A program made the position numbers and the translations under genes. The notes under the pieces were generated by a model, which was not told the DNA's origin, searched no databases, and worked only from the letters and a program-made list of their open reading frames with translations. Source: a virus. From it: a DNA stretch of 23,366 bases. The stretch is taken from positions 1-23,366 of the IMG/VR virus record IMGVR_UViG_3300046698_000445, one strand, 5' to 3'. This document shows positions 3,381 to 20,646 of the stretch, piece by piece; position 1 is the stretch's first letter, and each line of letters opens with the position of its first letter.

Positions 3381-3381
3381 T

Positions 3382-4008: not shown

Positions 4009-4022
4009 AGTTGCTCTCTAGC

Positions 4023-4035
4023 GCGCCTTCGGCGC
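4023..4035. repeat. Mini-palindrome GCGCC-TTC-GGCGC
   Basis: A triloop palindrome in the 69-base gap between the ribbon-helix-helix gene and the zinc-finger/coiled-coil gene. It is one of a family of GC-rich triloop palindromes in the intergenic DNA of this window. Confidence 0.55.
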
Positions 4036-4077
4036 CTCTTTCTTGCTGCGCGCGGCAGCAGCCTTCTAACTTCGATG

Positions 4078-4260
4078 TTACATCTTACGTCCTGGGACTT
4101 GAACTGTGACTTGCCCGTCCAAGAACATCTCCACAAGACGACGGATGAGGATGGCGCGATCTCCCTGACGCGGGAGGCGTCGCGCCAACCTCTCCCAATT
4201 CTGCTTGGGGATTCGGACTGTGGTGATGTGGAGAGGCGAGGCTGCCTGGGCTGAAGACAA
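4078..4260 (-). CDS. Ribbon-helix-helix (Arc/MetJ-type) DNA-binding protein
   Basis: A 60-residue protein. The core ITTVRIPKQNWERLARRL followed by RAILIRRLVEMFLDGQV has the beta-strand/helix/helix pattern of ribbon-helix-helix repressors: an N-terminal strand with alternating Thr/Arg, an amphipathic helix, then a second hydrophobic helix. Dimers of such proteins bind operator DNA. No ATG is available. A TTG at 4260 is preceded by AAGGAG with a six-base gap and is preferred. An upstream TTG at 4284 falls inside the predicted -10 box. The gene begins a transcription unit with its own promoter and is the best candidate in the window for a phage regulator acting on the dyad operators. Confidence 0.65.
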   Translation of the reverse strand: MSSAQAASPLHITTVRIPKQNWERLARRLPRQGDRAILIRRLVEMFLDGQVTVQVPGRKM

Positions 4261-4283
4261 AGTTGTTCTCCTTGACTGAGACA

Positions 4284-4312
4284 AGTGTATTCTCTCTGTA
4301 TGTCTTTGTCAA
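4284..4312 (-). promoter_or_regulatory. Sigma-70-type promoter of the ribbon-helix-helix gene
   Basis: On the minus strand, a consensus -35 TTGACA (4312-4307) is followed 17 bases later by TACACT (4289-4284). Transcription would start near 4277, just before the AAGGAG/TTG translation start at 4260. The same -10 hexamer occurs in the promoter at 9569-9598. Confidence 0.6.
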
Positions 4313-4362
4313 CAAGAATAAGTGCTTTGTTCTCAGCAACTTGCAGCACATCGTGATCTACG

Positions 4363-4686
4363 TCACAATTCTGACTCTTCCTCAGCACTCAACAGTGGCT
4401 CACACTCCCACACCGCATCCACCGCAGGGGCCACAAGAGTACAGACTAGATTTCGTGGCACGCTCATCCTGATACTGATGCCAGAGGTCTTGTAGTCCAG
4501 ATTAAGATCTGAGGAGGAGTAATACTTCGAGATTGGCCGAGGCATCAAAGCTGCCGCTCTCAGGAAAGTGTTTTTATCGTCGTACCACATCAAGATAAAG
4601 GGCCGATCCACATCCGCCTCAGGGTCCTTGTCAAGACAGGCTGCAAACTTACGAAGCTCCGCTGCTACTTCACTTGCTTTGGGCAC
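4363..4686 (-). CDS. Unknown phage protein, 107 aa
   Basis: Not recognised. From a GTG at 4686 (GAGAG six bases upstream) the protein begins with an amphipathic helix, EVAAELRKFAACLDKDP. A mixed alpha/beta region with PFILMWYDDKNTFLRAAALM follows, then basic and hydrophobic strands, and the tail EPLLSAEEESEL is acidic. An ATG further upstream (4821) would overlap the neighbouring gene by 56 bases and adds a basic low-complexity leader, so it is not used. The gap to the previous gene holds a small CCTCG-CAAGA-CGAGG hairpin. No domain or catalytic residues can be assigned. Confidence 0.6.
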   Translation of the reverse strand: MPKASEVAAELRKFAACLDKDPEADVDRPFILMWYDDKNTFLRAAALMPRPISKYYSSSDLNLDYKTSGISIRMSVPRNLVCTLVAPAVDAVWECEPLLSAEEESEL

Positions 4687-4765
4687 AGGGTGCTCTCTTT
4701 CTCCTCGTCTTGCGAGGTCTTGTCCAGTTTTAGTTTGGGAATTATGTCTTTGACTCCCTTTGCGG

Positions 4766-5023
4766 TTATCTGCTATGAAACTGCGCGCTGACTGCTTCCG
4801 ACATCTTTTCAACGTCAGCATCGGTTGCCTTTCGCAGGGTTACCCATTGGCCGTCTGGATGTCGGTAGAGAATCCATCCCGCAAGTTCATGTTTAGAGTC
4901 GGGATAGCAATACATCATTTCTTTTCCGTTCGACTCGAAGCGCAAAGGCGCGACAGCCAACTTGACCTTGCGCCTAACGAATTCATCCTGCTCTTTGCGA
5001 TACTTCTGCTGTTCCGCCGTCAT
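4766..5023 (-). CDS. Unknown phage protein, 85 aa
   Basis: A small charged protein beginning MTAEQQKYRKEQDEFVRRKVK. It continues with a likely beta-rich part (KEMMYCYPDSKHELAGWILYRHPDG is its most distinctive region, interrupted by Gly and Pro) and ends with a helix around DADVEKMSEAV. AAAGGA lies five bases before ATG. It follows the FtsK-like gene with a 45-base gap and is probably in the same unit. No family is recognised. Confidence 0.65.
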   Translation of the reverse strand: MTAEQQKYRKEQDEFVRRKVKLAVAPLRFESNGKEMMYCYPDSKHELAGWILYRHPDGQWVTLRKATDADVEKMSEAVSAQFHSR

Positions 5024-5068
5024 TTCATTCCTTTACCAAGGGACTCAAGTACGTAATTCCCTTTAGTT

Positions 5069-6307
5069 TCACTGGAGTTGTCTGTTCTGCGGCGCAGTCA
5101 CTGGCTGCGTCTCATGGAACTTCGCCATCATCACCGCGGCCTGCACATCCTCCTGCGTAGCAAGCCCGCTGTGAAGACGGAGAAGTCCCCCTTGGAAGTT
5201 CGGTGTTTTGTAGAGCATATCGCCTCGCTCCATGAGATACTGTGCCCCGCCCTCGTCGAGAACAACACGAGAGTCTATCTCTGTGGGCATCCTAAAGCTG
5301 AGGCGCGCAAGGAAGTTGGACTTGATATCCCCAGCCACAACCGCGATGCTTGGGCGCTGTGTCGCAGCGATGACGTGGATGCCAGCAGCTCGCGCCTTGC
5401 GAGAGAGATAGTCCACCTTCTCAATCCCCAAGGTCACTTTCTTGCCCTTGGCATCCTTGAGACTCACTATATCTGCAAGCTCATCAATCACGAGGACAAT
5501 GTAGGGGAGAGAGTCGTAGCCTCGCGAGGGCGCCTGGGCGTTGTACTCTTGGATGTTCTTAGCGCCACACTTTGAGAGGACCTGAAGTCGTTGGTCTGTC
5601 TCTTCGCATAGGTTCTCCAAATACTCGATGGTGCGCAAGGGGTTGGTGGCTCTCTCCCACATGAGATGTGGGCAACCGACAAAATCGGTAAACTCGACTG
5701 CTTTTGTGTCGCTGAGTACCAGCTTGACCTCGCTTGCGCGCCTGCTGTACAGGAGCCCCGCACACATGCTTCGAAGGAGAACTGATTTGCCGCCCCCGGT
5801 GGAGCCTGCGATGAGGAGATGTGGGAGTGTTGTGAGATCGTCAATGTAGACCTTGCCGAGCCAGTCAGTCCCCAAGTACAGAGGGATGTGCTGCTTCGTG
5901 GCATGGCCTTCTCCTTCGGAGAGGTCGGAGAGGTCTGCGACACGGGCGTTGCTGGGGGAACCCACGAGATTTCTCCACAGAACTGTGGTTTGCTCCTTGT
6001 TGGGCACATAAATTCCCATCACACCCTCCCCCGCAAGAGGCTTGACTACGATGTGAGGCGTGCAGAGGGCAAGGGCCAAGTCTGGGGCTAGTGCCTCCAC
6101 TGCAATGGTCTTGGTGCGTCCCTGCGGAGCGAGCCTGTAGAGTGTGACTCTATTCCCATGGGTCACCGTTGATATAGGACGAACGTCGAGTCCGAGGGCA
6201 AGGGCCCTCGTCAGAATCACCCCCAGAGTGCTCTGCTGTTGAGGGGACAGGGCTTCGCCCTTGGGCGACATGGGCGTTGCTGGAGAAGTCGAACTTTTGG
6301 GTTCCAT
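5069..6307 (-). CDS. FtsK/SpoIIIE-family DNA translocase
   Basis: A 412-residue hexameric-motor ATPase. Residues ~27-115 match the FtsK alpha/linker domain (GLDVRPISTVTHGNRVTLY, DLALAL, GIYVPNK). The motor domain has Walker A GSTGGGKS (168-175), Walker B VLVIDEL (271-277), and the family signature KARAAGIHVIAATQRPS followed by RGDML. There are no transmembrane segments and no C-terminal gamma winged helix, so it is a soluble, unanchored version of about the size seen in phages and plasmids. It may pump or remodel phage DNA during replication, recombination or transfer; which of these cannot be decided. Start ATG 6307 has AAGGA 11 bases upstream. An ATG at 6271 lacks a site. The first 158 bases overlap the preceding gene in another frame. 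Confidence 0.88.
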   Translation of the reverse strand: MEPKSSTSPATPMSPKGEALSPQQQSTLGVILTRALALGLDVRPISTVTHGNRVTLYRLAPQGRTKTIAVEALAPDLALALCTPHIVVKPLAGEGVMGIYVPNKEQTTVLWRNLVGSPSNARVADLSDLSEGEGHATKQHIPLYLGTDWLGKVYIDDLTTLPHLLIAGSTGGGKSVLLRSMCAGLLYSRRASEVKLVLSDTKAVEFTDFVGCPHLMWERATNPLRTIEYLENLCEETDQRLQVLSKCGAKNIQEYNAQAPSRGYDSLPYIVLVIDELADIVSLKDAKGKKVTLGIEKVDYLSRKARAAGIHVIAATQRPSIAVVAGDIKSNFLARLSFRMPTEIDSRVVLDEGGAQYLMERGDMLYKTPNFQGGLLRLHSGLATQEDVQAAVMMAKFHETQPVTAPQNRQLQ

Positions 6308-6593
6308 TCTGGGTGAGTTCCTTTTTCTTGCGAGATGATTTCTCTGCGGCAGGCTTGGGAGTACCTACGATATCGTAGCCATGCTCTACCGGATTTTGGG
6401 TGCTGCGGTATTGACAGACATCCTCATCAAGGAGTGTGATCTTGTAGTGCAAGTTTGTGAGAATCTTCACTCCACTTTGGGAGTAGAAGAGCAATGTGCC
6501 TGGGCGCACCACTGCGCTTTGGCACCACTCATAGTTGCCCAAGGGTCGCGTGTCTGCGCTGCCTTCGGCAGAGGGGTAGAGTTTGATGTTCAT
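6150..6593 (-). CDS. Unknown phage protein with a disordered tail overlapping the FtsK gene
   Basis: A 147-residue protein. The first ~85 residues (MNIKLYPSAEG, VVRPGTLLFYSQSG, HYKITLLDED) look folded and beta-rich. The remainder (KPAAEKSSRKKKEL onward) is basic, then Ser/Gly/Asp-rich, and probably disordered. AAAGGA lies seven bases before the start, and the ATG overlaps the previous stop (ATGA), so it is translationally coupled. The last ~52 codons overlap the FtsK-like gene in a different frame, an unusually long overlap. No domain is recognised. Confidence 0.65.
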   Translation of the reverse strand: MNIKLYPSAEGSADTRPLGNYEWCQSAVVRPGTLLFYSQSGVKILTNLHYKITLLDEDVCQYRSTQNPVEHGYDIVGTPKPAAEKSSRKKKELTQNGTQKFDFSSNAHVAQGRSPVPSTAEHSGGDSDEGPCPRTRRSSYINGDPWE

Positions 6594-8853: not shown

Positions 8854-9405
8854 CTAGATTGCTTCCGACTTGAACGCTGCGACGAGGCGATCCAGGTCGG
8901 CTGGGGTGAGAGCCACGCCAAACTGCTCCGAGAGCAGCTTCGCTGCTTTGGCGAGCGGGTCTGCCTTTCGACGCCCTTCTCCAGGCTTCGAGGCTTCTGC
9001 CATCACATCGTACAGCCCTTCCACGGCAGGCTGATCCGAGTCGTTCATGAACTCCCGCATCCCCTTGTGCTGTTGCGCGAGAATCAGGCCCCTGTTCACT
9101 ATGTCCGTAGCTACTTTCTCCGCGATTGTGGCGTCGGGCTGATACAGCCCGATCAGGTCGAACAGCTCTTTCCAGGAATCCACCTCGGTAACTTGGAAGC
9201 TCTGGAGCTTTGTGGTAATGTCCATCTCTGTGAGGCCATTCGCGCTTGCCTCTGCCACGATCTCCCTGTAAGACTTCGTTGAGGTGTCGATGTTGTTCTT
9301 GATTTCGATGAGCTGCTCCTCGCCTTTGTCGTCCATCTTGGGGGACTTGTCCGCGTTGAATTGCGGAATGCTGAGGTTTGCTCGGGTTTCGTTGTTGGTG
9401 TGCAT
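8854..9405 (-). CDS. Unknown helical protein, 183 aa
   Basis: A soluble, mostly helical, mildly acidic protein starting MHTNNETRANLSIPQFN. It continues with EEQLIEIKNNIDTSTKSYREI, a DSWKELFDLIGLY helix and a C-terminal AKLLSEQFGVALTPADLDRL helix pair. No family is recognised. ATG 9405 has GAAG/AGAAG upstream; a longer ATG (9543) would add a low-complexity segment encoded by intergenic repeats and is rejected. It is transcribed alone, from a TTGACA/TACACT promoter (9569-9598) to a terminator (8771-8817), the best-delimited single-gene unit here. That organisation suggests separate, early and possibly strong expression. Confidence 0.75.
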   Translation of the reverse strand: MHTNNETRANLSIPQFNADKSPKMDDKGEEQLIEIKNNIDTSTKSYREIVAEASANGLTEMDITTKLQSFQVTEVDSWKELFDLIGLYQPDATIAEKVATDIVNRGLILAQQHKGMREFMNDSDQPAVEGLYDVMAEASKPGEGRRKADPLAKAAKLLSEQFGVALTPADLDRLVAAFKSEAI

Positions 9406-9540
9406 ATTGTGGTTCTTCTTTCTTCCAGGCGCCGAAGGCTCGCTGGATGTTGTGCTCCGTCGGTGCTCCGTCGGAGCTTGGTTGGTGCTGCTTTGTGCCA
9501 GCTTCGCAGCTTCGCTGCGTCGAAGGCTCGCTGGATGATG
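9406..9540. repeat. 5' leader with mini-palindromes and a direct repeat
   Basis: This untranslated leader has a 15-base word, GAAGGCTCGCTGGAT, present twice (from about 9434 and about 9521). A GCTCC-GTC-GGAGC palindrome and other GC-rich triloop elements lie between the two copies. The minus-strand transcript from the 9569-9598 promoter would carry all of it upstream of the 183-aa gene. No open frame with a ribosome site is seen. Confidence 0.5.
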
Positions 9541-9598
9541 CACTTACAGAACTAGCATGACTAGCGTAAGTGTACATGAGACATGAAGCGTCTGTCAA
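9541..9598 (-). promoter_or_regulatory. Promoter with overlapping operator dyad
   Basis: On the minus strand, -35 TTGACA (9598-9593), an 18-base spacer, and -10 TACACT (9574-9569). A dyad CACTTAC (9541-9547) ... GTAAGTG (9566-9572) has its right arm on the -10 box. A direct ACTAGC repeat lies between the arms. A protein bound there would block the promoter. Confidence 0.6.
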
Positions 9599-9610: not shown

Positions 9611-9678
9611 GCACAAGCGCACAAGCACGCACAAGCGCGTGTAAGTGCTCTGCTTTGAAGCACTTGTGAAGCACTTGT
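9611..9678. repeat. Short tandem repeats upstream of the 9598 promoter
   Basis: Three GCACAAGC words (9611, 9619, 9629), then two exact 11-base GAAGCACTTGT units (9657-9667, 9668-9678). They lie between the zinc-ribbon gene and the promoter. The minus-strand reading AAGTGCTT resembles the GTGCTTT core of the iterons at 11216-11269. Confidence 0.6.
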
Positions 9679-9705: not shown

Positions 9706-10287
9706 TCAGCGCTTCGCGCGCTCTTCGCTCTTCGCAGGAGTGGGCTCCGTAGGAGCGGAGGTGTCCAATGAGGTGCCTTCCAGGAGCCAGTCCTGTTTCT
9801 GCGGACCTCTCTTGAGAATCTGCTTCTTAATTATATCCAGGGCTTCTTGCGCCTTGAGCTGAACAAGCCGTAACTTGGTTGGGCTCATTTTCTTCTGGGC
9901 CTCACCCAAAGACTCAGGATCTTTCTTCTTCGGAGGAGGCGCCCCACACACCCAGTCCTTCTGGAACTTCTGTGAGCAGAGCCGACACACAAACCCAGGC
10001 ACTATGATTATGGTGCCGTTCTTGAGCTTCTCTGTCTTGGCGAGCTTCTCTCGCGAGAGCACAGAGGCGGAGCCGCAATTCGGGCAGTGTGGTCTTGGGG
10101 TCTTGACTCTGCCACATCGACAGAGTGAGTCTGAGCGCTCTTCGTGCTCCTCTGAGCGCTCTTCGTGCTCCTCTGAGCGCTCCGTGCGCACGCTGGCCTC
10201 ACCGCTGGCCTCCAGCGCAGGATCGCGCTCCGCGCGCGCTTCGTGTGCATCTCCACGCGCTTCGTGTGGGCGATCAGCATTTGCCAT
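9706..10287 (-). CDS. Zinc-ribbon protein with a charged repeat region
   Basis: A 193-residue protein. The N-terminal ~55 residues are highly charged and include a heptad repeat ERSEEHE encoded by a 21-base DNA repeat. A zinc ribbon follows (LCRCGRV, HCPNCGS, then VCRLCSQKF, giving CxC, CxxC and CxxC pairs). The C-terminal half is a Lys-rich helix with a Pro/Ala/Thr tail. The ribbon resembles nucleic-acid-binding zinc ribbons, but no function is known. ATG 10287 has AAGGAG seven bases upstream; an ORF extending further upstream has no ribosome site. The 3' end of the coding sequence contains a GCTCC-GTA-GGAGC palindrome (9744-9756) identical to intergenic copies. Confidence 0.72.
   Translation of the reverse strand: MANADRPHEARGDAHEARAERDPALEASGEASVRTERSEEHEERSEEHEERSDSLCRCGRVKTPRPHCPNCGSASVLSREKLAKTEKLKNGTIIIVPGFVCRLCSQKFQKDWVCGAPPPKKKDPESLGEAQKKMSPTKLRLVQLKAQEALDIIKKQILKRGPQKQDWLLEGTSLDTSAPTEPTPAKSEERAKR
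10130..10182. repeat. 21-bp tandem repeat, 2.5 copies, in frame
   Basis: Exact 21-base units at 10130-10150 and 10151-10171 plus half a unit to 10182. They are in frame within the zinc-ribbon gene and encode the seven-residue ERSEEHE repeat, so copy number can change without a frameshift. Confidence 0.75.
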
Positions 10288-10374
10288 TTTGTTTCTCCTT
10301 GCTCTGCGCTCTGCGCTGCAACTTTTACGGCAGAGGTTCACCCGCTCATTCGGACGCCCGAAGGCGTTTCGATC

Positions 10375-10566
10375 TTAGGTGCCGCAGGCGGCATACTGCA
10401 AGTGCCAGCGCTGCCAGAGTCTCGTTGACGGCTCAGGTACGGTAATATTCAAGTGAGCGGGGGAACTGGTGATACCAATAGAATGCCAGCGCCCGTTAAG
10501 ACAAACGGCGAACCCAATAACGTAGGCTCCGTAAATGTTCCTTGCAGCGTATGTGGAAGTTTTCAC
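10375..10566 (-). CDS. Unknown small protein, 63 aa
   Basis: From GTG 10566 (AGGA nine bases upstream) the protein reads VKTSTYAARNIYGAYVIGF, then VCLNGRWHSIGITSSPAH and a Trp-rich end. It looks like a small beta-rich domain. An ATG at 10590 has no ribosome site and lies within the likely transcript start region. The gene has its own promoter (10597-10624). No family is recognised. Confidence 0.55.
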   Translation of the reverse strand: MKTSTYAARNIYGAYVIGFAVCLNGRWHSIGITSSPAHLNITVPEPSTRLWQRWHLQYAACGT

Positions 10567-10590
10567 TATCGTGTGTCCTTTCCACTGCAT

Positions 10591-10624: not shown

Positions 10625-10687
10625 GAACAAAATAAAATTCTATTTGCTTTGTAATCAATAGCTTACCAGCCTGTGCAAATCTTTTTA

Positions 10688-11067: not shown

Positions 11068-11128
11068 GATCTTCTCCCTCCTATTTGGTACATGTTGGTG
11101 GAGCGACTCAACTCTGCTCCTTTGAGTG

Positions 11129-11152
11129 CAAATATATTATAGCATATATTTG
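11129..11152 (-). promoter_or_regulatory. Extended -10 promoter inside an A/T dyad
   Basis: On the minus strand TGCTATAAT (11144-11136) is an extended -10 with a consensus TATAAT. The dyad CAAATATAT (11129-11137) ... ATATATTTG (11144-11152) is centred on it. The nearest TTGACA lies 28 bases upstream, too far for a -35, consistent with an extended -10 promoter. It drives the 109-aa gene and is probably operator-controlled. Confidence 0.6.
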
Positions 11153-11170
11153 TGCTGTTGTGTGTGTTTT

Positions 11171-11210
11171 TTGTCAAGTCTTGTCAAGTCTTGACAAGTC
11201 TTGACAAGTC
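11171..11210. repeat. Iteron array A: four 10-bp TTGWCAAGTC units
   Basis: TTGTCAAGTC twice then TTGACAAGTC twice, with exact 10-bp spacing. Each unit contains the heptamer palindrome TTG-W-CAA. Ten-bp spacing puts every unit on the same face of the helix, typical of cooperative initiator or regulator binding. Confidence 0.8.
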
Positions 11211-11215
11211 TCTAT

Positions 11216-11269
11216 GTGCTTTAGAATGAGTGCTTTAGAGTGCTTTAGAGTGCTTTAGAGTGCTTTAGA
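11216..11269. repeat. Iteron array B: five GTGCTTTAGA units
   Basis: Units at 11216, 11230, 11240, 11250 and 11260; the last four are perfectly tandem with 10-bp period. They run directly into an A-rich tract. With array A this forms a classic iteron block next to low-melting DNA. Confidence 0.82.
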
Positions 11270-11437
11270 AAAAAACAAACATTTTATAAATTTATCTCGC
11301 AGAACACACTGTCTCTGCGCAATCTTGCAACTACGACTTTAGTGCTATGTCGCTTTGGTGCGCAACGAGGCACCGTTTCTTTTATTTTACCCCCCTATCT
11401 TAATATATTATTTTTTTTATATAAAAAAAAAAAAAAA
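11270..11437. other. A/T-rich tract, putative DNA-unwinding element of an origin
   Basis: Bases 11270-11300 are strongly A/T. Bases 11398-11437 are almost only A and T, with a run of T then a run of about 15 A. With the neighbouring iterons this fits a replication origin. There is no credible gene between 11068 and 11749. Confidence 0.55.
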
Positions 11438-11480
11438 TGCCACGTCAAACGGAGCGAGTTCCACAGCGAAGCTGAGACGC

Positions 11481-11534
11481 GCTTCGCGCGAAGCTCCGTA
11501 GGAGCGCGAAGCTCCGTAGGAGCGCCGAAGGCGC
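11481..11534. repeat. Cluster of mini-palindromes
   Basis: Two exact GCTCC-GTA-GGAGC palindromes (11493-11505, 11511-11523) run directly into GCGCC-GAA-GGCGC (11522-11534), preceded by GCGCTTCGCGC. These are triloop hairpin elements of the family scattered through the intergenic DNA. Confidence 0.7.
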
Positions 11535-11691
11535 GGTACGCGGTCATGGCAAACAATGTAGTATTTACACTGTTGCAAGACTGCACAAAAACAGCGCTCA
11601 AAACAAATAATTTTGCAATGTATGTGTTCATTTGTAAGTGCTTTGTCTTGAGCAAGATGCGTATCTTGAACACACAACTTAAAATGCACAC

Positions 11692-11721
11692 AAAGTGAAC
11701 ACCCATAAAGTGAACACCCAT
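11692..11721. repeat. Tandem half-sites of the dispersed dyad
   Basis: AAAGTGAACACCCAT occurs twice in tandem (11692-11706, 11707-11721). Each contains the TGAACACCC arm of the dispersed dyad. They lie between the putative origin and the gene ending at 11750. A degenerate copy (TTGAACACACAAC) lies about 40 bases to the left. Confidence 0.75.
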
Positions 11722-11749
11722 GGCACCTCCCCGCTACGCGGGCTTGCGC

Positions 11750-12208
11750 TTAGCTCTCCGAAGGAGCGCCGAAGGTGTGCCAGAACTGAGCTGCCTCCAG
11801 AAGATTTCGCCCGCACGCATTGCATGGCAGGAAGCGGGCCTTATCATGATAGCAGAACACTTTGTAGTAGTCTGCTGGGAGCCACTGCACGACAAGACCA
11901 CCACTCGCCTCTCGAACCATACCATTGATCCGCTGCAAGCGCAGCGTCACTTCACGTGCACTTGGCGCGGGTGGGATGAGGTCCAAGTACTTGCCTGGCT
12001 CACGTAGATTGAAGTTGCTTCCACACTCGTTCGGAGATGTGTGGTGACGCGGAGCGAGAAGTGCAACGAAAGTGCGGGCATCTTGCACGCGCTTCGCTTG
12101 ACCACGAGCGGTGGGCTGTGCGCTTCGCAAGCGCTTCGCGCGCTCCGCGCGCTGGCACAGTTCGATGGATATGGGATTTCCGAGCGAGTCACACTTGATA
12201 TGGATCAT
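11750..12208 (-). CDS. Unknown Cys-containing protein, 152 aa
   Basis: The protein begins MIHIKCDSLGNPISIELCQ. A basic segment, a helical middle (REVTLRLQRINGMVREASGG) and a C-terminal part, YHDKARFLPCNACGRNLLEAAQFW, follow; the CNAC could contribute to a zinc site with earlier Cys/His. No family is recognised. ATG 12208 has GGAG five bases upstream. An upstream ATG (12295) would run through the long inverted repeat at 12233-12269 and is not used. The last codons lie in mini-palindrome DNA (CTCC-GAA-GGAG at 11756-11766), so the 3' end may have been extended by repeat insertion. Confidence 0.6.
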   Translation of the reverse strand: MIHIKCDSLGNPISIELCQRAERAKRLRSAQPTARGQAKRVQDARTFVALLAPRHHTSPNECGSNFNLREPGKYLDLIPPAPSAREVTLRLQRINGMVREASGGLVVQWLPADYYKVFCYHDKARFLPCNACGRNLLEAAQFWHTFGAPSES

Positions 12209-12232
12209 GAGTTCTCCAGCTTGCGGGCGCTT

Positions 12233-12269
12233 GTGCACTGCGCTTGCGCACTGCTCTTGCGCAGTGCAC
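12233..12269. repeat. 11-bp inverted repeat
   Basis: GTGCACTGCGC (12233-12243) and GCGCAGTGCAC (12259-12269), 15 bases apart. It lies just upstream of the 152-aa gene start and could sequester leader RNA or act as an operator. Confidence 0.65.
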
Positions 12270-12289
12270 TTGCGCGGGCGCAAGAAAAT

Positions 12290-12321
12290 CCCCATCGCAC
12301 AGAGCGCATTGTGCGATGGGG
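12290..12321 (-). terminator. Rho-independent terminator after the 130-aa gene
   Basis: A perfect 12-bp stem (CCCCATCGCACA, 12290-12301, with TGTGCGATGGGG, 12310-12321) with an eight-base loop. On the minus strand it is followed by ATTTTCTT. It lies 24 bases beyond the stop of the 130-aa gene. Confidence 0.75.
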
Positions 12322-12345
12322 CAATATGGTTGATCGTAGCTGAGA

Positions 12346-12738
12346 CTATGCAACAGCGCTCTTGGTCTTAAGACTTTGCTTTGCCACTTCCAGCGCTAGC
12401 GCTGTGAGCAGTTTCACAGAATCAGTGAACAAAGCAGCATCTTCCATTTGGAGTGTGCAGACAACTTGCGCTAGCGCTGGATTGATTCGCAAGAAGCTAG
12501 CGATCTTCTCTTTGGCAAGCTGCTGCTCTTCTGCGGACTTGCGCTTCAAAGTTGCTTTGATACTGTTCTCGCGTGCTCCCAGTCCAAGCTGAAAGAGATG
12601 ATACGTGGTTGCGTCCCACTTAGTTCCATCGCTCTCTTGCACGTCAAGCAATCGAGTGAGTTCTTCATCTGTGATTATTATTTGAATAGTGTTGGATGTA
12701 TCAGAGTCGTTGCTCTGTGTGTTGCTCTGCTGTGTCAT
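12346..12738 (-). CDS. Unknown helical protein, first gene of the minus-strand block
   Basis: A 130-residue soluble protein. A Ser/Asn/Gln-rich start (MTQQSNTQSNDSDTSN) precedes IIITDEELTRLLDVQESDG, a helix-rich centre (AEEQQLAKEKIASFLRINP) and a hydrophobic helix, DSVKLLTALALEVAKQSL. No helix-turn-helix is obvious. AGGAG precedes ATG 12738. It sits alone between a possible promoter at 12915-12944 and a good terminator, next to the divergent region. A regulatory role is suggested only by position. Confidence 0.7.
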   Translation of the reverse strand: MTQQSNTQSNDSDTSNTIQIIITDEELTRLLDVQESDGTKWDATTYHLFQLGLGARENSIKATLKRKSAEEQQLAKEKIASFLRINPALAQVVCTLQMEDAALFTDSVKLLTALALEVAKQSLKTKSAVA

Positions 12739-12759
12739 TGTGTTTTCTCCTCGTTTAAT

Positions 12760-12795
12760 TTGCGCATGTTGCGCGTGTTGCGCGTGTTGCGCGTG
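12760..12795. repeat. 9-bp tandem repeat, four copies
   Basis: TTGCGCATG then three TTGCGCGTG units, plus a trailing TTG. It lies in the 5' leader of the 130-aa gene. Confidence 0.8.
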
Positions 12796-12840
12796 TTGAA
12801 TCTTAGCTTCTCATCTATTACGTTCGCGTTCGCGTCCTGG

Positions 12841-12872
12841 CAGCAGCGCAGCGCCACAGCAGCGCAGCGCCC
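12841..12872. repeat. 16-bp tandem repeat, two copies
   Basis: CAGCAGCGCAGCGCC followed by one base, repeated with a single final-base difference, in the divergent intergenic region. Confidence 0.75.
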
Positions 12873-12914
12873 CAAGAGGGGGTGGAGGCTCAAAATCTCG
12901 CTTGAGCTTCGATG

Positions 12915-12944
12915 CTTATACCTTTGAAAATAATTTTTTCCCAA
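12915..12944 (-). promoter_or_regulatory. Possible promoter of the 130-aa gene
   Basis: On the minus strand TTGGGA (12944-12939), 18 bases, TATAAG (12920-12915). The -10 is good and the -35 moderate. It would give a leader of about 170 bases carrying the 9-bp and 16-bp repeats. Confidence 0.35.
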
Positions 12945-12959
12945 ATCAGCGTTCTAGCT

Positions 12960-12993
12960 CCTACGGTCATGTCATTCCTACGGTCATGTCATT
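12960..12993. repeat. 17-bp tandem repeat, two copies
   Basis: CCTACGGTCATGTCATT occurs twice without a gap, just upstream of the possible minus-strand promoter. It could be a paired binding site. Confidence 0.8.
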
Positions 12994-13001
12994 CGCACAG
13001 T

Positions 13002-13077
13002 CGCACAGCGAGATGAGCGTCGCACAGCGAGATGAGCGTCGCACAGCGAGATGAGCGTCGCACAGCGAGATGAGCGT
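13002..13077. repeat. 19-bp tandem repeat, four perfect copies
   Basis: Units start at 13002, 13021, 13040 and 13059 (each CGCACAGCGAG then ATGAGCGT). The array lies in the centre of the divergent region. Perfect identity indicates recent expansion or strong selection. Confidence 0.85.
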
Positions 13078-13110
13078 CGGTCATTCTATGGAGTGTGTGA
13101 CAGATGCGCA

Positions 13111-13131
13111 GGTGTTCAAGGCATGAACACC
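13111..13131. promoter_or_regulatory. Dispersed dyad, copy 3
   Basis: GGTGTTCA (13111-13118), five bases, TGAACACC (13124-13131), in the divergent region between the two transcription blocks. Apart from this, the tandem repeats and the promoter at 13347, nothing else is evident in 12739-13418. Confidence 0.75.
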
Positions 13132-13346
13132 CATGCACGGCGAGAGGGCCCAAGCAACGCTCAGGGCTGCCTGCGGCAGTGGCGTGGTGCAGGTGCGGTG
13201 GCTGGGTTGTGCGGGCTGTGTGTGGCAGCGCCGCGAGGCTGTGACAAACACACAAGAATACTGAGAGAATACACTGCGATGTCCCGCTTCGCGCAACCTA
13301 CGCTTCGCGCACGACTTACAAAGGTGAGAAAGAGATGAGAATTGTG

Positions 13347-13375
13347 TTGCGTTGCTGTACGAGCTGTGCTAGACT
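13347..13375 (+). promoter_or_regulatory. Possible promoter of the packaging/head block
   Basis: TTGCGT (13347-13352), 17 bases, then TAGACT (13370-13375) preceded by TGC, an extended -10. TAGACT is also the -10 of the minus-strand promoter at 10591-10624. It lies 44 bases before the terminase small-subunit gene. Confidence 0.45.
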
Positions 13376-13418
13376 CAATGCAGCTCTAAGTGTACACCTT
13401 CGATGTAGGTAAGCGAAG

Positions 13419-14060
13419 ATGCCTCCTCTCCCACCCAACTCGTTAGGCACCTCCTTAGGAGGTGGCTCAGGCCAAGGGCCTAGCAGCAAGCTCCTGATTC
13501 GCATCCAACAGATCGCACGCTACCGCGTCACAGGGCGATTCTCTGACACGCGGATTGCGGAGATGGTGGGGCTCAGTGCAGCCCAGCTACGCACGGTTCT
13601 TCAGACGTCTCAGTACATCGAAATTGAGGAGAGCCTCCTCGAAGGGCGTCTCTCCAAGATTGACGAGGAGCTGGAGGATCAAGACGACAGGCTTCAGGAG
13701 AAGGCGGAGCTGATGGTGCCTGCGGCACTGAACGCTCTCCTCGAAGCGGTCTTACAGAGGCGTGATCTCAGGGCTTCGCTGGTGGCGGCCAAAGAAATCT
13801 TGGACCGGGACCCCAAGGCACGCTTCCTCGCCAACAAGGGCACCACAGGCTCAGAGAGAGACAAGGCAGATAAGCCCACACTTCCCGCAGACATCGTGGC
13901 GAGCTTGGCTGTGGAGGGGAACAAGGTGGTGGCGGAGATTAAGCTGCCTGCGAAGCAGGGCGGGGCAAGCGCAAGGGTGGAGACACAGATGCAGGCACAG
14001 GAGAAGAAGCCTGTGCTCGACAGCAAGACGGTTGTGATGCAAGAGACAGGGGAGGCATAA
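13419..14060 (+). CDS. terS: Terminase small subunit
   Basis: A 213-residue protein. A Pro/Gly-rich N-terminus is followed by a helix-turn-helix-like segment (SDTRIAEMVGLSAAQLRTVL, about residues 42-61), the DNA-recognition part of small terminases. A coiled-coil region (EESLLEGRLSKIDEELEDQDD) typical of the oligomerisation domain comes next. The C-terminal ~70 residues are Lys/Ala/Gln-rich and could bind the large subunit. The assignment also rests on position, one small gene before the large terminase and first in the rightward block. Only a weak AGG site precedes ATG 13419. Small terminases diverge greatly, so the domain order is stronger evidence than sequence similarity. Confidence 0.75.
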   Translation: MPPLPPNSLGTSLGGGSGQGPSSKLLIRIQQIARYRVTGRFSDTRIAEMVGLSAAQLRTVLQTSQYIEIEESLLEGRLSKIDEELEDQDDRLQEKAELMVPAALNALLEAVLQRRDLRASLVAAKEILDRDPKARFLANKGTTGSERDKADKPTLPADIVASLAVEGNKVVAEIKLPAKQGGASARVETQMQAQEKKPVLDSKTVVMQETGEA

Positions 14061-14061
14061 G

Positions 14062-14292
14062 ATGGGAGCTTTGGGAGCTGCGGGAGCTGGAGCTTTAGGT
14101 GTGCTAGGTACCATAGATAAGGTACGTAAGATTGCGGGAGCAGGCGGGAGCGGTAAGGGTGCCCCCGCACTCCCTGCGAGAAAATCTGTTGCTGCCTCGC
14201 CTGGAGTGAGCATCACATCTGGGGTGGGGTCCTCGATGGGGTCCATGGGAACGAAGAAGGCGTATGCCCCCAAGATGCAGTGGGGGCAGTAG
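14062..14292 (+). CDS. Small Gly/Ala-rich protein, unknown
   Basis: A 76-residue low-complexity protein (MGALGAAGAGALGVLGTIDK, then basic and Gly/Ser-rich segments, ending KMQWGQ). GGAGG six bases before ATG argues that it is translated, although composition alone would not. It lies between the two terminase genes, a place where phages often have a short accessory virion or packaging peptide. The hydrophobic N-terminus could be a weak membrane or virion-binding helix. Confidence 0.6.
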   Translation: MGALGAAGAGALGVLGTIDKVRKIAGAGGSGKGAPALPARKSVAASPGVSITSGVGSSMGSMGTKKAYAPKMQWGQ

Positions 14293-14322
14293 CGCAGCTA
14301 CGCAACCAAGACAAGAACAGGA

Positions 14323-16065
14323 ATGCACCTTTTTGATCCCATCCCGATCCCGCAAGACGCAGACCCCACGAGACAGCTGCGTCTCCACAGGCTGAACTGT
14401 CTGGGCTCCTTGCACTACTTCATCAAAGTGGCGCTGATGCGCAAGCGCCTGACCAGGCACTTCCACCTCAAAATCTGCAAATCTCTTGAAAGTGAGCGAA
14501 TCAAGCTCCTTATGGAGATTCCGAGAGACTTCTTCAAATCTACGATTGCCTCAGAGGGGCTGCCAATGTGGCGCGCCCTCCCAATTTCGCAAAGAGATGT
14601 GGAGGAGTTTACAGCCTTGGGGTATCCTCAAGAGTTCCTCCGCTACATGCTCATAATTCATGATTGCACCAAACGCAATCTCCTTGTCTCGGAGACCGTG
14701 ACGAATGCAGCCAAACTAGGGACCAAGATTCGCAAACACTACGAGAGTAACGCAATCTACAGGACTCTGTTCCCCGAAACTCTGCCTACAGCGCAGAATC
14801 GGTGGACAGATTTCAGTCTTGAGGTTAACCAACCCGCCAGCGCTGCTCCACACGGCGAGGGCACCTTCGACTTCCTCGGTGTGGGCGGTGCTGCACAGTC
14901 TCGTCACTATAATGGGCTCATCATTCAGGATGATTTGCCTGGGCGCAAAGCCATAGAGTCGCCCTCAGTCATGGATAAGGCTATTGACTATCATCAGCTT
15001 GTCATGTCATTGTATGACAAGGATGACGCTTCGCATAGCGGTGATGAGCTTGTGATTGGGAATAGATGGGGCTACCACGACCTCAACTCTCACATCAGGG
15101 AGAAGGAGCCGTGGTTCACAGTTGAGAATCACTCCGCCTTGGGCGGCTGCTGTGATGAGCACCCATTCGGCGTTCCTATATTCCCAGAGGAATGGGACCT
15201 CGACAAGCTCAATGAGGCGAAGGCTCGCTACGGTGCCTACAAGTTCTCCTGTCAATACCTCAACTCTCCCGTAGCCCCAGAGGATGCTGACTTTAAGGAT
15301 GAGTACCTAAACTACTTCACTCTTGAGCAGGATCACAGTGATGCCTCGGTGATTGTGGTGCATGAATCTGCAAATGGCCTCATTAGGAAGGACATCCCCT
15401 ACAGGAGGCTCAGTGTCGCCATGGCGTGTGATCCCACTCACACGGCCGGAGGCCGGTGTCGCCATGCCATCGTAGTGCTGGGGATCAGTCCTGAGGGCAA
15501 CTACTACCTTCTTGACACATGGGCACAGTCCTCCAGTCACGAGATTTTCTTCAACAAAATCTACGCGATGGCGGAGAAGTGGCGCTGCAAGAAAGTGGGC
15601 TTCGAGACATGCGCGGGGCAGAGCCTCGCCCTCCCTCATATCAAATACTTGAACACAGTGCGCCCCTGGCGCATCAACATCACAGAACTCAAAGGGGAGG
15701 TTGAGGGCCCAGATGGGGAGATCACCACGAAGAAGGAGTGGCGCATACGCAACATCCTCGGCCCAATCTTTGAGTTTGGTCGCTTCTTCATGCAGCGCAA
15801 GCAACAGGACTTTCTTGGGGAGTACACCACGTTTCCTCGTGGACGATATTGCGATCAGCTTGACGCGCTTGCGTATGCGCCTCAGCTCCTCCGCACTCCA
15901 ATGAACGCTCAAGTTGCAGATGCGATGTTGCGGCAGAACAAGCAGATGTCTCGGCAGATCGCGCAGCCCTACAGCGTCCATACGGCTGCGCACAGCTACG
16001 GAGGTTATTTGAGCGGCGGGTATGGTGGTCTAATTGGCGACGCCCTAAAAGGAGGTCGCGCATGA
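14323..16065 (+). CDS. terL: Terminase large subunit
   Basis: A 580-residue packaging motor. The N-terminal ATPase has an atypical Walker A, IPRDFFKST (66-74), and a Walker B, LIIQDDL (199-205). The C-terminal RNase-H-fold nuclease shows its acidic residues in MACDPTHT (Asp370), GFETC (Glu428) and YCDQLDALAY (Asp511 and Asp514). It pumps DNA into the prohead and cuts the concatemer. In Walker A the usual glycine before Lys is Phe, as in other deviant terminase P-loops. ATG 14323 has AGGA immediately upstream, an unusually short spacing. The stop overlaps the next gene by four bases. All key residues are present, so the gene appears intact. Confidence 0.95.
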   Translation: MHLFDPIPIPQDADPTRQLRLHRLNCLGSLHYFIKVALMRKRLTRHFHLKICKSLESERIKLLMEIPRDFFKSTIASEGLPMWRALPISQRDVEEFTALGYPQEFLRYMLIIHDCTKRNLLVSETVTNAAKLGTKIRKHYESNAIYRTLFPETLPTAQNRWTDFSLEVNQPASAAPHGEGTFDFLGVGGAAQSRHYNGLIIQDDLPGRKAIESPSVMDKAIDYHQLVMSLYDKDDASHSGDELVIGNRWGYHDLNSHIREKEPWFTVENHSALGGCCDEHPFGVPIFPEEWDLDKLNEAKARYGAYKFSCQYLNSPVAPEDADFKDEYLNYFTLEQDHSDASVIVVHESANGLIRKDIPYRRLSVAMACDPTHTAGGRCRHAIVVLGISPEGNYYLLDTWAQSSSHEIFFNKIYAMAEKWRCKKVGFETCAGQSLALPHIKYLNTVRPWRINITELKGEVEGPDGEITTKKEWRIRNILGPIFEFGRFFMQRKQQDFLGEYTTFPRGRYCDQLDALAYAPQLLRTPMNAQVADAMLRQNKQMSRQIAQPYSVHTAAHSYGGYLSGGYGGLIGDALKGGRA

Positions 16066-16286
16066 ATAATGTAGCCAGCAGTTGGAAAACAACAGTAGTG
16101 GGTCTGGCCAGTGCTGGGCTCTACGCTTGGGCCAATGCAGGCAATATGGATGCCAAGCACATAGCGGTTGCAGTCCTGATGGCCGTGATTGGCGCAGCGA
16201 TGCACGATAGCTCGCTGTTTGGTCCAACAGCAGCAGAGATTCAACCTGCTGCGCAGCGCGACCAAGGAGCCTCGGCAGGAAAATAA
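16062..16286 (+). CDS. Small membrane protein (holin-like), 74 aa
   Basis: Two hydrophobic segments (VVGLASAGLYAWANA, about residues 12-26, and HIAVAVLMAVIGAAM, about 33-47) are separated by a short polar turn and followed by a soluble tail. The size and hairpin topology are like class II holins or holin-like phage proteins, though no lysis enzyme is visible nearby. AAGGAGGT lies five bases before ATG 16062, and the gene overlaps the terminase stop by ATGA. Translation should be very efficient. It is the first of three small genes inserted between terminase and portal. Confidence 0.7.
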   Translation: MNNVASSWKTTVVGLASAGLYAWANAGNMDAKHIAVAVLMAVIGAAMHDSSLFGPTAAEIQPAAQRDQGASAGK

Positions 16287-16289
16287 GAT

Positions 16290-16631
16290 ATGCCCAATCC
16301 TTTCGACGCGCTAGCGACCTACTTTCTCGGCAAGATTCAGCAGAAGGTCTATCAGACATGGATGCGCCTGCTGTTTCAGCTCGCGGTTTCGATGGCGGGT
16401 TCATTCCTGTTTATCGCGGGGACAACAATGGTCGCAAGCATCACCAAGATGCCAGCGAGCGATGCGCTAGTCCTCGGGCTCGGGTCAGGAATGGTCGCAG
16501 CGGCCTGCGTACTGGTTTACTTCATCAGGCGCGATCCGAACCTGAAGGGCATGATGTTTGTGTTTCCCCAGGCCGAAGCCGAGAAGGAATTAAATTCCGA
16601 TATGCAGGTCATCACCAAATCAGACAAATAA
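16290..16631 (+). CDS. Two-pass membrane protein, 113 aa
   Basis: An amphipathic N-terminus (MPNPFDALATYFLGKIQQK) is followed by two predicted membrane segments: about residues 27-51 (RLLFQLAVSMAGSFLFIAG) and about 58-79 (DALVLGLGSGMVAAACVLVYF). A polar tail of about 30 residues follows. It could be a holin or antiholin partner of the preceding 74-aa protein, or a membrane anchor. AGGA lies about nine bases before ATG. No family is recognised. Confidence 0.7.
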   Translation: MPNPFDALATYFLGKIQQKVYQTWMRLLFQLAVSMAGSFLFIAGTTMVASITKMPASDALVLGLGSGMVAAACVLVYFIRRDPNLKGMMFVFPQAEAEKELNSDMQVITKSDK

Positions 16632-16641
16632 CGGAGGAATC

Positions 16642-17052
16642 ATGGCAAACAAGTTCGTTGCGTTTCTGGATAAGGTTGCATCCGGTGCTAAGGGCGTCGG
16701 AAAATTCATCGCGGAGAAAGCCCTTCCGCTGGCAGTCGAAGGTGCCGAATTGGTCGAGCCGGTAGTGGATTTAGCCTTCCCCGCGATTGGCCCGGAGTTC
16801 ATTATCGTCGTGTCGGCCGTCGCCCAGACTGAGGCCTCATGGGCCGTGGTCGGCCAGGAAACTGGCACCGGTGCACAGAAGATGGCTGATGTCATCTCAA
16901 TGGTCGAATCGAAGCTGTTACCCACTCTGACCGCTCAGGGACTGGAGACGGCAGCAGCTCAGGCCAAGATTGCCACCTACGCTCAGGCCGTGGTGACTAT
17001 CCTCAACACGTTTCCAGTAGTCACGCAGCCCGTCGTCACGCAGACAGCTTAA
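16642..17052 (+). CDS. Amphipathic Ala/Val-rich protein, 136 aa
   Basis: The sequence starts MANKFVAFLDKVASGAKG and continues ALPLAVEGAELVEPVVDLAF, IIVVSAVAQTEASWAVVG and a helical C-terminus ending TQPVVTQTA. It is rich in Ala, Val and Glu without a clear membrane span, and probably helical. GGAGG lies four bases before ATG. It closes the three-gene cassette before the portal. The codon style of this cassette (more GTC, ATC and GGC) appears different from the flanking terminase and portal, suggesting separate origin. Function unknown. Confidence 0.65.
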   Translation: MANKFVAFLDKVASGAKGVGKFIAEKALPLAVEGAELVEPVVDLAFPAIGPEFIIVVSAVAQTEASWAVVGQETGTGAQKMADVISMVESKLLPTLTAQGLETAAAQAKIATYAQAVVTILNTFPVVTQPVVTQTA

Positions 17053-17068
17053 GTCGGACAGGAGCACT

Positions 17069-18991
17069 TTGCTTGAGCAGATCAAAATCCCGTTGAGTGG
17101 TGAGGCTGAGGAGAGGCTGTGTCGTTACTTGGGCCAACGTATTCGTGGGCTCAAGAGCGGCCTCTCCGACCTTCACGAGAACAGGATTGTGCAGTGGCGC
17201 AAGGCTTACGAGGCTACGCCTGCTGAGTCCACACGGGAGTTCCCATGGCATGGCGCCTCCAACCTCGTTGTCCCGGTCATCGCCATTCATTGTGACACAC
17301 TGCTCGCTCGGGTGATGAACGCCATCATCAAGACAAGCCCACTGTGGACAGCTCGACTCATAGGCAAGTACCCCAAGAAGGCCATTGAGTTCAAGAATGC
17401 CTTTGAGGAGTTCATGCAGTACGTTGGGTTGGAGCCCACAGAACTCGATCTCTATCGAGTGTATCATGAATGGTTTGGGGAAGCCATTCGCTATGGCACC
17501 TCTGTCTTGAAGTGCCCGTGGATCACGGAGATTGAGGACAAGATTGCTCCAGCAGGTGACGGGACTGGGAAGCCCTACGCAGACATCACCTACGAGGGGC
17601 CGCGACCTGAGAAACTCCCATTCAATGACTTCTTGATGTCCCCAGTTCACAAGACTATTGAGTCTGCGGATTTCAAGGCCCACAGAATCAGATTGAGCCG
17701 CTTTGCGCTTGAGGAGCGGGCGTGGAGGGGCATCTACGACAAGGCCAAAGTTAAGGAGATTCTTGGGAAGCCTGACCTCACCTCGCCTGATGCAGTGGCT
17801 CAGATGCAGCAGACTGACGCAGGGGCACAGGTCAGCGCAACCTACGGCTTCGAAGAATACCACATCTACGAATGCCATTTCAAGTACCGCGTCAATCGTG
17901 GGCGCTTTGTTCGATGTATGGCATGGTACAACGAGAAGAACAACAAACTCCTCCGCGCATACTATCAGTACTACCCTGACGAGGTGTTTTTGGCTGCGCG
18001 CCTCTTCTACAGAGATGATTACTTCTACGGCTACGGGTTCTGTGAGACCCTTGGGATGTTTCAAGAAGAAATCTCGCAGATTCACAATCAGCGTCGTGAC
18101 AACTCCACTGTTGCCAACACGATGACATGGCGGGTGGACCCGGATGCAATTCTCGACAAGGGCTACAGAGTGTTCCCGGGTGCCACTCTCCCAGGAAAGA
18201 AAGGCGACATCGAGGGCCTCTCGCCTGGGCAGGTCTCCCCCATGATGATTGATGAGGAGAGGATGTCACTGGAGCTGGCCGAGAAGCGTAGTGGCGTCTC
18301 AGCCCCCATACAAGGCATGGGCTCAGGGGTGATGTCCAAACGTGGAGTTTACAGCGCGATGGGCACGCTCTCTCTCCTTCAGGAAGGCAACACACGCACT
18401 GACCTCAACATCACGGATATAAGATATGCACATACCAAATTGGGCCGTTTGCTCTCAAAGCAGTATGCGGAGTTTGGGCTTGGCACACGTCCAAGACAAT
18501 TTGGACTTGACGGACCAGCTATTCAGGCTGCGTTCGAGGGAATACGTGACAAGGCGATATGCCTCCCAGTCTCTGCGTCCACAGCCTCAGTCAACAGAGA
18601 AGTTGAAAAGCAAGCTGACATCATGCTCTCGGGGTTGATGCAGAAGCACTACCAGATGATTGGGCAGATGCTTCAAGCAGCATCCAACCAATTCACTCCA
18701 CCTGAGATGAAACAGTACCTCAACGACTCCATCGAAGCCGCAAATACCTTGATGAAGTCGGTGTTTAGACATTTCGGCTACGACGAAGTGGAGAGATATG
18801 TTCCTGAAGTACAGGCTGCCGCAGCGCCCCAAGCCCCACAAAGGGCATTGCCTGGTGGAATGTCTGCCGCGCCTGGAGGAGGAGGGGCTCCTAAGCCACC
18901 TGGTCCAGCAGGGACTCCTCAGGGGGCTCCTCCTCCAAACAACGGTGCTGCACCTCCCAGCGGAGCTGCTGGTGGAGGGGGGGTCATATGA
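17069..18991 (+). CDS. Portal protein
   Basis: A 640-residue protein of the dodecameric ring at the packaging vertex. The N-terminal region has the typical STREFPWHGASNLVVPVIA motif followed by DTLLARVMNAI, as in portals of several tailed-phage groups. The middle holds a long alpha/beta wing/stem region (EWFGEAIRYGTSVLKCPWI, FNDFLMSP, IHNQRRDNSTVANTMTWR). The last ~50 residues are Pro/Gly/Ala-rich and probably disordered. The start is a TTG at 17069 with AGGAG four bases upstream; no ATG is well placed. It follows the terminase by three small genes and couples to the next gene by ATGA. Confidence 0.92.
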   Translation: MLEQIKIPLSGEAEERLCRYLGQRIRGLKSGLSDLHENRIVQWRKAYEATPAESTREFPWHGASNLVVPVIAIHCDTLLARVMNAIIKTSPLWTARLIGKYPKKAIEFKNAFEEFMQYVGLEPTELDLYRVYHEWFGEAIRYGTSVLKCPWITEIEDKIAPAGDGTGKPYADITYEGPRPEKLPFNDFLMSPVHKTIESADFKAHRIRLSRFALEERAWRGIYDKAKVKEILGKPDLTSPDAVAQMQQTDAGAQVSATYGFEEYHIYECHFKYRVNRGRFVRCMAWYNEKNNKLLRAYYQYYPDEVFLAARLFYRDDYFYGYGFCETLGMFQEEISQIHNQRRDNSTVANTMTWRVDPDAILDKGYRVFPGATLPGKKGDIEGLSPGQVSPMMIDEERMSLELAEKRSGVSAPIQGMGSGVMSKRGVYSAMGTLSLLQEGNTRTDLNITDIRYAHTKLGRLLSKQYAEFGLGTRPRQFGLDGPAIQAAFEGIRDKAICLPVSASTASVNREVEKQADIMLSGLMQKHYQMIGQMLQAASNQFTPPEMKQYLNDSIEAANTLMKSVFRHFGYDEVERYVPEVQAAAAPQAPQRALPGGMSAAPGGGGAPKPPGPAGTPQGAPPPNNGAAPPSGAAGGGGVI

Positions 18992-19227
18992 CCAATCTTG
19001 ACATAATTCTTGACAAGGCCCCCTCGATGAGGGCATGGTTCCAAGACCCCCGCACCAAAACATTCTTCGAGTGGCTCTTGGCGGAGCGCCAAAGTCCTGA
19101 CAGGCAGCTCAAAGAAGCCTCAGATGTGCATGTGATGTATCGGGCGCAGGGAGAGATAGCAAGGCTTGATCGGATTTTGGGCCTCGAAGCACTTGTTGTG
19201 CAGCATCTAAAGAAGCAGACCAAATAA
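18988..19227 (+). CDS. Small head-region protein, 79 aa
   Basis: A charged helical protein: NLDIILDKAPSMRAWFQDP, KTFFEWLLAERQS, ASDVHVMYRAQGEIARLDRI and a basic end. It overlaps the portal stop by four bases and precedes the scaffold-like gene, so it is cotranslated with head genes. It may be an accessory prohead protein. No family is recognised. Confidence 0.7.
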   Translation: MTNLDIILDKAPSMRAWFQDPRTKTFFEWLLAERQSPDRQLKEASDVHVMYRAQGEIARLDRILGLEALVVQHLKKQTK

Positions 19228-19245
19228 ATCGACGGGAGGCGGCTT

Positions 19246-20581: not shown

Positions 20582-20613
20582 CGAAGCCCCATGTCTAGGT
20601 TCATCAGGGAAGG

Positions 20614-20630
20614 CCTCCGCTTTGCGGAGG
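20614..20630 (+). promoter_or_regulatory. Hairpin CCTCCGC-TTT-GCGGAGG before the capsid pair
   Basis: A seven-bp stem with a TTT loop, in the 65-base gap between the 220-aa gene and the decoration-like gene. There is no T-run after it, so it is more likely an mRNA processing/stability element than a terminator. A closely similar hairpin follows the capsid gene (22238-22252). Confidence 0.5.
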
Positions 20631-20646
20631 GGGAAGGGGTGACTAG

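Follow-up and report, generated by a model that had tools for sequence, protein, structure and literature searches.

We propose, with somewhat better than even confidence, that the region at positions 11068-11749 is a two-part locus, in which a putative replication origin at a pure A/T tract adjoins a leftward early promoter with multiplied elements. The tract locus is probably the origin, with the tract as its unwinding element, because of the tract and its place and not because of the two repeat arrays found nearby. These arrays, which the original prediction had regarded as iterons, appear from their sequence to be multiplied copies of early-promoter elements and not sites of origin proteins. 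For a phage group known so far only from metagenomes this provides a predicted origin at a fixed gene junction, tells origin and promoter apart although they resemble each other in this region, and pairs the predicted site with a candidate AAA+ helicase.

Genome map and the A/T tract

The analysed stretch of DNA (the window) is an IMG/VR record of 23,366 bp (virus record IMGVR_UViG_3300046698_000445). A further contig of 41,236 bp (IMGVR_UViG_3300014491_000006, here G001) is near-identical at both window ends (window 1-6593 and 12876-23366), and since it overlaps both of them the map of this lytic-looking phage closes at approximately 47.9 kb. The phage belongs to an uncultured group with genomes of approximately 45-50 kb. 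None of the isolated phages is close (best TerL identity 30%), and no match to the DNA region was found among them. A scan of genome collections returned only the TerL of a Sulfuriferula MAG (36%), which is too distant for naming a host.

The leftward early genes encode a Sak4-like annealing protein, a PD-(D/E)XK exonuclease, an FtsK-like, a vWA and a weakly DnaJ-like protein, and the rightward genes encode terminase, portal and capsid. The remaining genome codes for a family-A DNA polymerase with a UDG domain, a primase/helicase-like protein (PHROG 14296), a co-chaperonin, and a ParB-like protein whose gene is conserved in the group. In one related contig a single reading frame (L017:10520-13207) comprises the family-A DNA polymerase and an N-terminal family-4-type uracil-DNA glycosylase domain; another single protein of this contig (L017:9112-10215) has an ABC-type ATPase part and, after it, a weak match to acetyltransferases (GNAT), and belongs to PHROG 11143 of unknown function.

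Relatives were collected by a TerL profile search, which yielded 80 loci. Their gene order is kept, with SSB-like, Sak4, exonuclease, FtsK, vWA, DnaJ-like and zinc-ribbon genes on the early side, followed by the tract region, one to two small leftward genes, and then the rightward terS, TerL, portal and capsid genes. Transcription diverges between terS and the leftward genes. The features around the tract are:

9706..10341, minus strand: zinc-ribbon protein gene, left flank of the tract in most relatives with coverage
10738..11067, minus strand: small gene that would be driven by the array promoter, otherwise found only in a near-identical contig
11309..11331, plus strand: left arm of an inverted repeat, weak here (3/200 in-contig controls reach its score)
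11400..11438, no strand: pure A/T tract of 39 nt, candidate DNA unwinding element
11572..11594, minus strand: right arm of the inverted repeat, on the other side of the tract
11750..12295, minus strand: small Cys/His-rich protein gene, right flank of the tract in several relatives
13419..14060, plus strand: probable small terminase gene (terS), so named from its position ahead of TerL; the syntenic interval ends here on the right

The A/T tract that had been noticed beyond the arrays was confirmed as a pure run, and no conserved gene was found in 11068-11749, in agreement with the assumption that these approximately 680 bases hold no credible gene. The tract is the most A/T-rich window of the whole 47.9-kb genome at 30, 40 and 60 bp. 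It is also syntenic, as most of the relatives with coverage have it in the interval from the zinc-ribbon gene to terS, and thus represents a distinct A/T-rich element of low stability at a conserved place. In ten relatives (G002, G005, G006, G008, G009, G010, G011, G012, G016, G017) the top A/T 40-mer was found at the same junction, for tract loci that were partly chosen by eye; the top window lies elsewhere in G007 and G013, and is tied in G014. The interval from the zinc-ribbon gene to terS makes up roughly 4-9% of the relatives' genomes. All four later-fetched genomes that cover the region (G024, G025, G026, G015) have their top A/T window inside the interval, as predicted beforehand, where one must keep in mind that they are not fully independent: G024 is close to G006, the G008 branch includes G025 and G026, and G015 had already been examined as L098. 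The region is not covered by G018 and G027. For new genomes, the 40-mer richest in A/T within this interval would serve as a rule for finding the predicted origin.

Several observations concern the immediate surroundings of the tract. The contigs of five relatives (L034, L047, L064, L095, L097) end in or near it, and these ends are probably assembly breaks at poly-A. Another contig (L007) carries both arrays unchanged, with only an A run that is shorter by 1 nt. Dispersed G/C-rich palindromic repeats of the GCTCCGTAGGAGCGC type adjoin the tract (window 11440-11535 and 11756-11775).

A long imperfect inverted repeat has the tract at its centre in many relatives, and is often the strongest of the genome. 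Compared to in-contig controls, about 15 of 27 loci were at or beyond about 98% of the controls. In a whole-genome scan the inverted repeat was unmatched elsewhere in G005, G006, G009, G010, G016 and G017, and matched elsewhere in G002, G003, G008, G011, G012, G014 and in the window phage, whose symmetry is weak (7/170 blocks reach it). It was the strongest of the genome in the later-fetched G024, G025 and G026. Tracts without significant symmetry include L074, L076, L080, L088/G011 and L091. The arms differ in sequence between the phages and share no common motif.

Other explanations of the tract region were considered and set aside. An RNA hairpin in place of a DNA symmetry was judged from wobble counts, and strict arms had 31 GT and 51 AC, with no excess on the plus strand and a mild excess on the minus strand, which is not decisive; for loose arms the counts were 195 v 218. 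An intrinsic terminator does not fit a tract that lies between the arms and not directly after a tight stem. The listed Rfam matches were all below their gathering scores, and were taken as chance. A hairpin telomere is at odds with the window and other contigs crossing the tract, and with terminal overlaps of 97-127 nt, as in circular assemblies, in at least five genomes (G002, G006, G009, G011, G012). For an integrase attachment site, no Phage_integrase was found in seven genomes.

The arrays and the early-promoter signal

To describe the arrays in the context of the promoters of this phage, we list them together with the sites found by a box model explained below:

4319..4345, minus strand: box, promoter of gene 4078-4284, score 29.4, then TTGACA-17-TACACT
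9642..9668, minus strand: box upstream of gene 8854-9543, score 16.6
10641..10667, minus strand: box, promoter of gene 10375-10590, score 29.2, then TTGACA-16-TAGACT (10624-10597)
11136..11141, minus strand: probable -10 of a leftward promoter (predicted), TATAAT, extended TGC-TATAAT
11171..11210, no strand: array 1, four 10-bp TTGWCAAGTC units
11213..11239, minus strand: box in array 2, TCTAAAGCACTCATTCTAAAGCACATA, score 18.8, the best box match in array 2
11216..11269, minus strand: array 2, five GTGCTTTAGA units, on the minus strand TCTAAAGCAC
11635..11661, minus strand: second promoter-type box, right of the tract, CGCATCTTGCTCAAGACAAAGCACTTA, score 21.7, with no TTGACA behind

Both arrays were found exactly as first described. 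The units of array 1 are, in order, TTGTCAAGTC, TTGTCAAGTC, TTGACAAGTC and TTGACAAGTC, and they read CTTGWCAA on the minus strand. As the central W is T in the first two units and A in the last two, the array as a whole is a near-perfect 37-bp palindrome. The units of array 2 start at 11216, 11230, 11240, 11250 and 11260, with a spacing of 14, 10, 10 and 10, so that the period is mostly 10 bp. In 100 dinucleotide shuffles no tandem pair of either unit is expected, which indicates that the arrays are not due to chance. Both units are unique as arrays within the 47.9-kb genome. An exact search for paired TTGWCAAGTC units elsewhere in IMG/VR gave chance two-unit matches only. Relatives that keep the tract have a single block or none at the array position, and no arrays; G005 has one block, TTTGTCAAGGACTATAAGTGCATTAGAATCAAC, at the same junction. 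The arrays lie in a hot spot of tandem repeats (11171-13079), which accounts for 15 of the 40 TRF rows of the window. Copy number differs between near-identical contigs for a 9-bp array near 12784 and a 19-bp array at 13000-13079.

The early-promoter signal of the group consists of a box GTAAGTTATTGAAAACAAAGNACTTA (minus strand), approximately 6 bp, TTGACA, 17 bp and TATAAT. The box model started from seeds in six relatives and was extended to 22 records, and the window was left out. A TTGAC occurs within 35 nt downstream of 42 of the 71 boxes across the group, compared to 3 of the 71 on the other side, and at exactly 6 nt from the box in 20 of the 71 sites; for these counts it has to be considered that the seeds included the -35 region. 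The -10 was not part of the seeds, and -10-like hexamers peak at a spacing of 17 bp (21/41, compared to 0-7 at other spacings). TTGACA and TATAAT-like hexamers thus stand 17 bp apart downstream of the box group-wide, as in a sigma-70-type promoter, and the box together with the -35 is a promoter signal. The orientation of the box is leftward in 47 of the 71 sites. When the 47.9-kb genome of the window phage was scanned, the five sites listed above stood out, and the next best scored 9.4.

The original prediction suggested that two arrays of different sequence are sites for two proteins. This was not borne out, as the array units match the promoter box and the -35 instead. Array 1 takes the position of the relatives' -35 hexamer (TTGACA) directly downstream of the box, and would represent this hexamer of a leftward early promoter in multiplied form. 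Array 2 would likewise be the multiplied core of the promoter box. The arrays could then be described as a leftward early promoter adjoining the tract, with tandem 10-bp copies of the -35 element and of an upstream box for a regulator or RNA polymerase. The multiplied copies seem to be lineage-specific and have probably arisen by slippage. Being on one face of the helix, they may strengthen or retune the promoter.

The promoter in the window departs from the canonical spacing. Its nearest TTGACA (11177-11172) lies 30 bp from the TATAAT (11141-11136), where the extended -10 is present. No -35 was found 16-18 bp from this -10, and the promoter scan does not report it. Since there is no -35 at 17 bp from its -10, the array promoter of the window may be altered or weak. 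The distance from the box to the -10 is 71 nt compared to 29 nt at 4319, and we infer from this one case that the surplus of 42 bp would correspond to four helical turns. The TGCTTTA in array 2 resembles the T4 MotA box; it was rejected as such, its orientation being opposite to the promoter.

The box followed by TTGACA-17-TATAAT was also found in contigs of 127 kb and 360 kb; the stretches retrieved from them contain none of the marker genes of this group. The promoter signal is therefore not specific to this origin, and may reflect a shared host or regulator. Promoter boxes are present in L136, L137, L141 and L144 (contigs of 360, 37 and 127 kb), which are otherwise unlike in the fetched stretch. 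A box common to seemingly unrelated phages could point to a common host or a common regulator. Short blastn searches for the box in isolated phages and plasmids gave chance-level matches only, and a literature search by the sequence of the dyad box GTAAGTTATTGAAAACAAAGNACTTA returned nothing relevant.

The candidate origin, a candidate helicase and rival explanations

A probable course of events at this locus is that the strands open at the tract (11400-11438) with its symmetric flanks, and that replication starts in both directions from this element of low stability. The tract is kept at one gene junction, near the divergence of leftward early and rightward late genes. The likely opener and helicase would be an AAA+ protein of the phage (L148:3001-4260) with a C-terminal winged helix. 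The GC skew proposed as a check agrees in outline. Its maximum is at the early/late convergence, approximately 20 kb to the left, and its minimum lies to the right of the tract at a distance of +0.5 to +10 kb, or +544 bp in this phage; however, the skew follows gene direction and cannot place the origin.

It had been noted that no initiator was recognised in the window, and Pfam and PHROGs scans of the early proteins likewise name no replication initiator. The suggestion to look for one elsewhere in the genome was answered in part. Rep_3, the iteron-type initiator family, is absent in seven genomes and positive in some controls; the Pfam family DnaB_C is absent in the seven genomes as well, and so is the MCM family PF00493, which is positive in all 14 controls. 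The nearest candidate is the AAA+ protein, encoded approximately 18 kb from the site beside the family-A polymerase. This primase/helicase-like protein was modelled from two homologues. Mean pLDDT was low in both cases (54.2 and 55.8) and under 50 in the core, with the C-terminal winged helix better predicted. Both models (pLDDT 54-56) rank MCM chains first in the PDB, with Foldseek E-values of 1e-4 and 7e-4; among the 50 best VIA matches, all of them MCM, Z was 13.5-12.2, and the alignments spanned about 240-330 residues. The protein is thus a candidate with a weakly modelled MCM-like fold and a C-terminal winged helix, and we put forward as a proposal that it acts at the tract. A wider version of the two-part locus would be a symmetric origin common to the group, in which the symmetry around the tract is conserved, the sequence of the arms is not, and a phage AAA+ helicase of the MCM fold opens the tract from both sides. 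We consider this extension doubtful. If true, the replication start of these bacteriophages would be closer to SV40 or to archaeal and eukaryotic systems than to lambda or iteron plasmids.

Several other readings have to be weighed against a two-part locus. A classic iteron origin, with two phage initiators that attach to the 10-bp arrays and open the A/T tract nearby, would explain the helically spaced tandem direct repeats beside an A/T-rich element, and its kind is well known (PMC4980987, PMC7466680). It is nevertheless decidedly improbable, as relatives with a conserved tract have no arrays at this position, the array units match a dispersed promoter signal, the arrays are 130-230 bp away from the tract, and the seven genomes lack Rep_3. 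From the earlier view of iterons plus an A/T element, an origin-like locus with its tract, place and frequent inverted repeat persists, and the role of the arrays as iterons does not. The opposite simplification, a promoter region only, takes the tract as a bent or supercoil-sensitive upstream element and lets replication start elsewhere. Early promoters do lie beside the tract in many relatives, with boxes often within approximately 100-220 bp. However, at other early promoters in these genomes the box and the -35 are not accompanied by such a tract or dyad, and a promoter does not need a long inverted repeat, which makes this account unlikely. For the arrays alone, neutral slippage in poorly constrained intergenic DNA, giving products with no function of their own, has a better standing, and is somewhat unlikely rather than far-fetched: tandem repeats abound in the stretch of 11.1-13.1 kb, where two arrays nearby have a variable copy number. 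It is countered by the arrays being exact copies of both functional words in the promoter block, and by an extra length that equals four helical turns.

An origin primed by transcription, of the T4 oriF or T7 primary origin type, would use a transcript through the tract as primer or R-loop for the family-A polymerase. Such a polymerase is present, Rep_3 and DnaB_C are not found, and leftward transcription from the genes at 11750-12738 would cross the tract. In T4, an A+T-rich unwinding element is combined with a promoter in oriF and oriG, and the origins that are active are found close to strand-switch regions (PMC3016281). Here the direction of the conserved promoter is away from the tract, a promoter firing into it was not identified, and the dyad has no role in such a scheme; we regard transcription priming as quite unlikely. 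A site for partition (centromere-like), or another protein scaffold, at which the ParB-like protein would act, is the least probable of these readings, and very improbable. While a conserved ParB-like gene and symmetric sites around a flexible tract would suit this role, no ParA was recognised among the scanned proteins, no integrase was found, and the arms have no sequence shared between the phages, unlike what is expected of a ParB site.

Comparison with known systems

The two-part locus, with its candidate origin at the tract, shares single features with several described systems. Similarity to a sigma-70-type promoter with an upstream activator or UP-type site is found on the promoter side, where TTGACA-17-TATAAT is preceded by a conserved element just upstream of the -35; in contrast to known upstream sites of this kind, the dyad box is without a match in the literature searched. 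Iteron origins, as those of the lambdoid O protein and of iteron plasmids, have the short direct repeats of 10-bp phase near an A/T tract in common with the window. The phage repeats differ from them in that they appear to be lineage-specific copies of a promoter signal and not conserved sites of an initiator.

The combination of a promoter with an A+T-rich element near a transcription strand switch is in agreement with T4 oriF/oriG (PMC3016281), but the conserved promoter of the phages points away from the tract, and no MotA-type gene was recognised among the scanned phage proteins.

In SaPI and SCCmec elements (Rep, Cch, Cch2; CCPol) self-loading AAA+ helicases carry a C-terminal origin-binding domain, and a family-A polymerase lies beside Cch2 (PMC7581432). 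The title of a work cited there describes Cch as MCM-like (PMC7581432). The phage resembles them in that the polymerase adjoins an AAA+ protein with a C-terminal winged helix. The origin of SaPIs, however, is located just downstream of the helicase gene and holds iterons, whereas the candidate origin of the phage lies approximately 18 kb away on the map and is flanked by arms without a motif common to the phages.

The core origin of SV40 combines a palindrome with an A/T-rich region, and is opened by an AAA+ double hexamer, the large T antigen (PMC5295021). The candidate origin described here likewise has an A/T-rich region, which lies within an inverted repeat in many relatives and within a weak one in the window phage. 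In SV40 the A/T region is located beside the binding sites, which contain fixed GAGGC pentamers, whereas in the phages the tract is central, no common pentamer was found, and the helicase is a candidate only.
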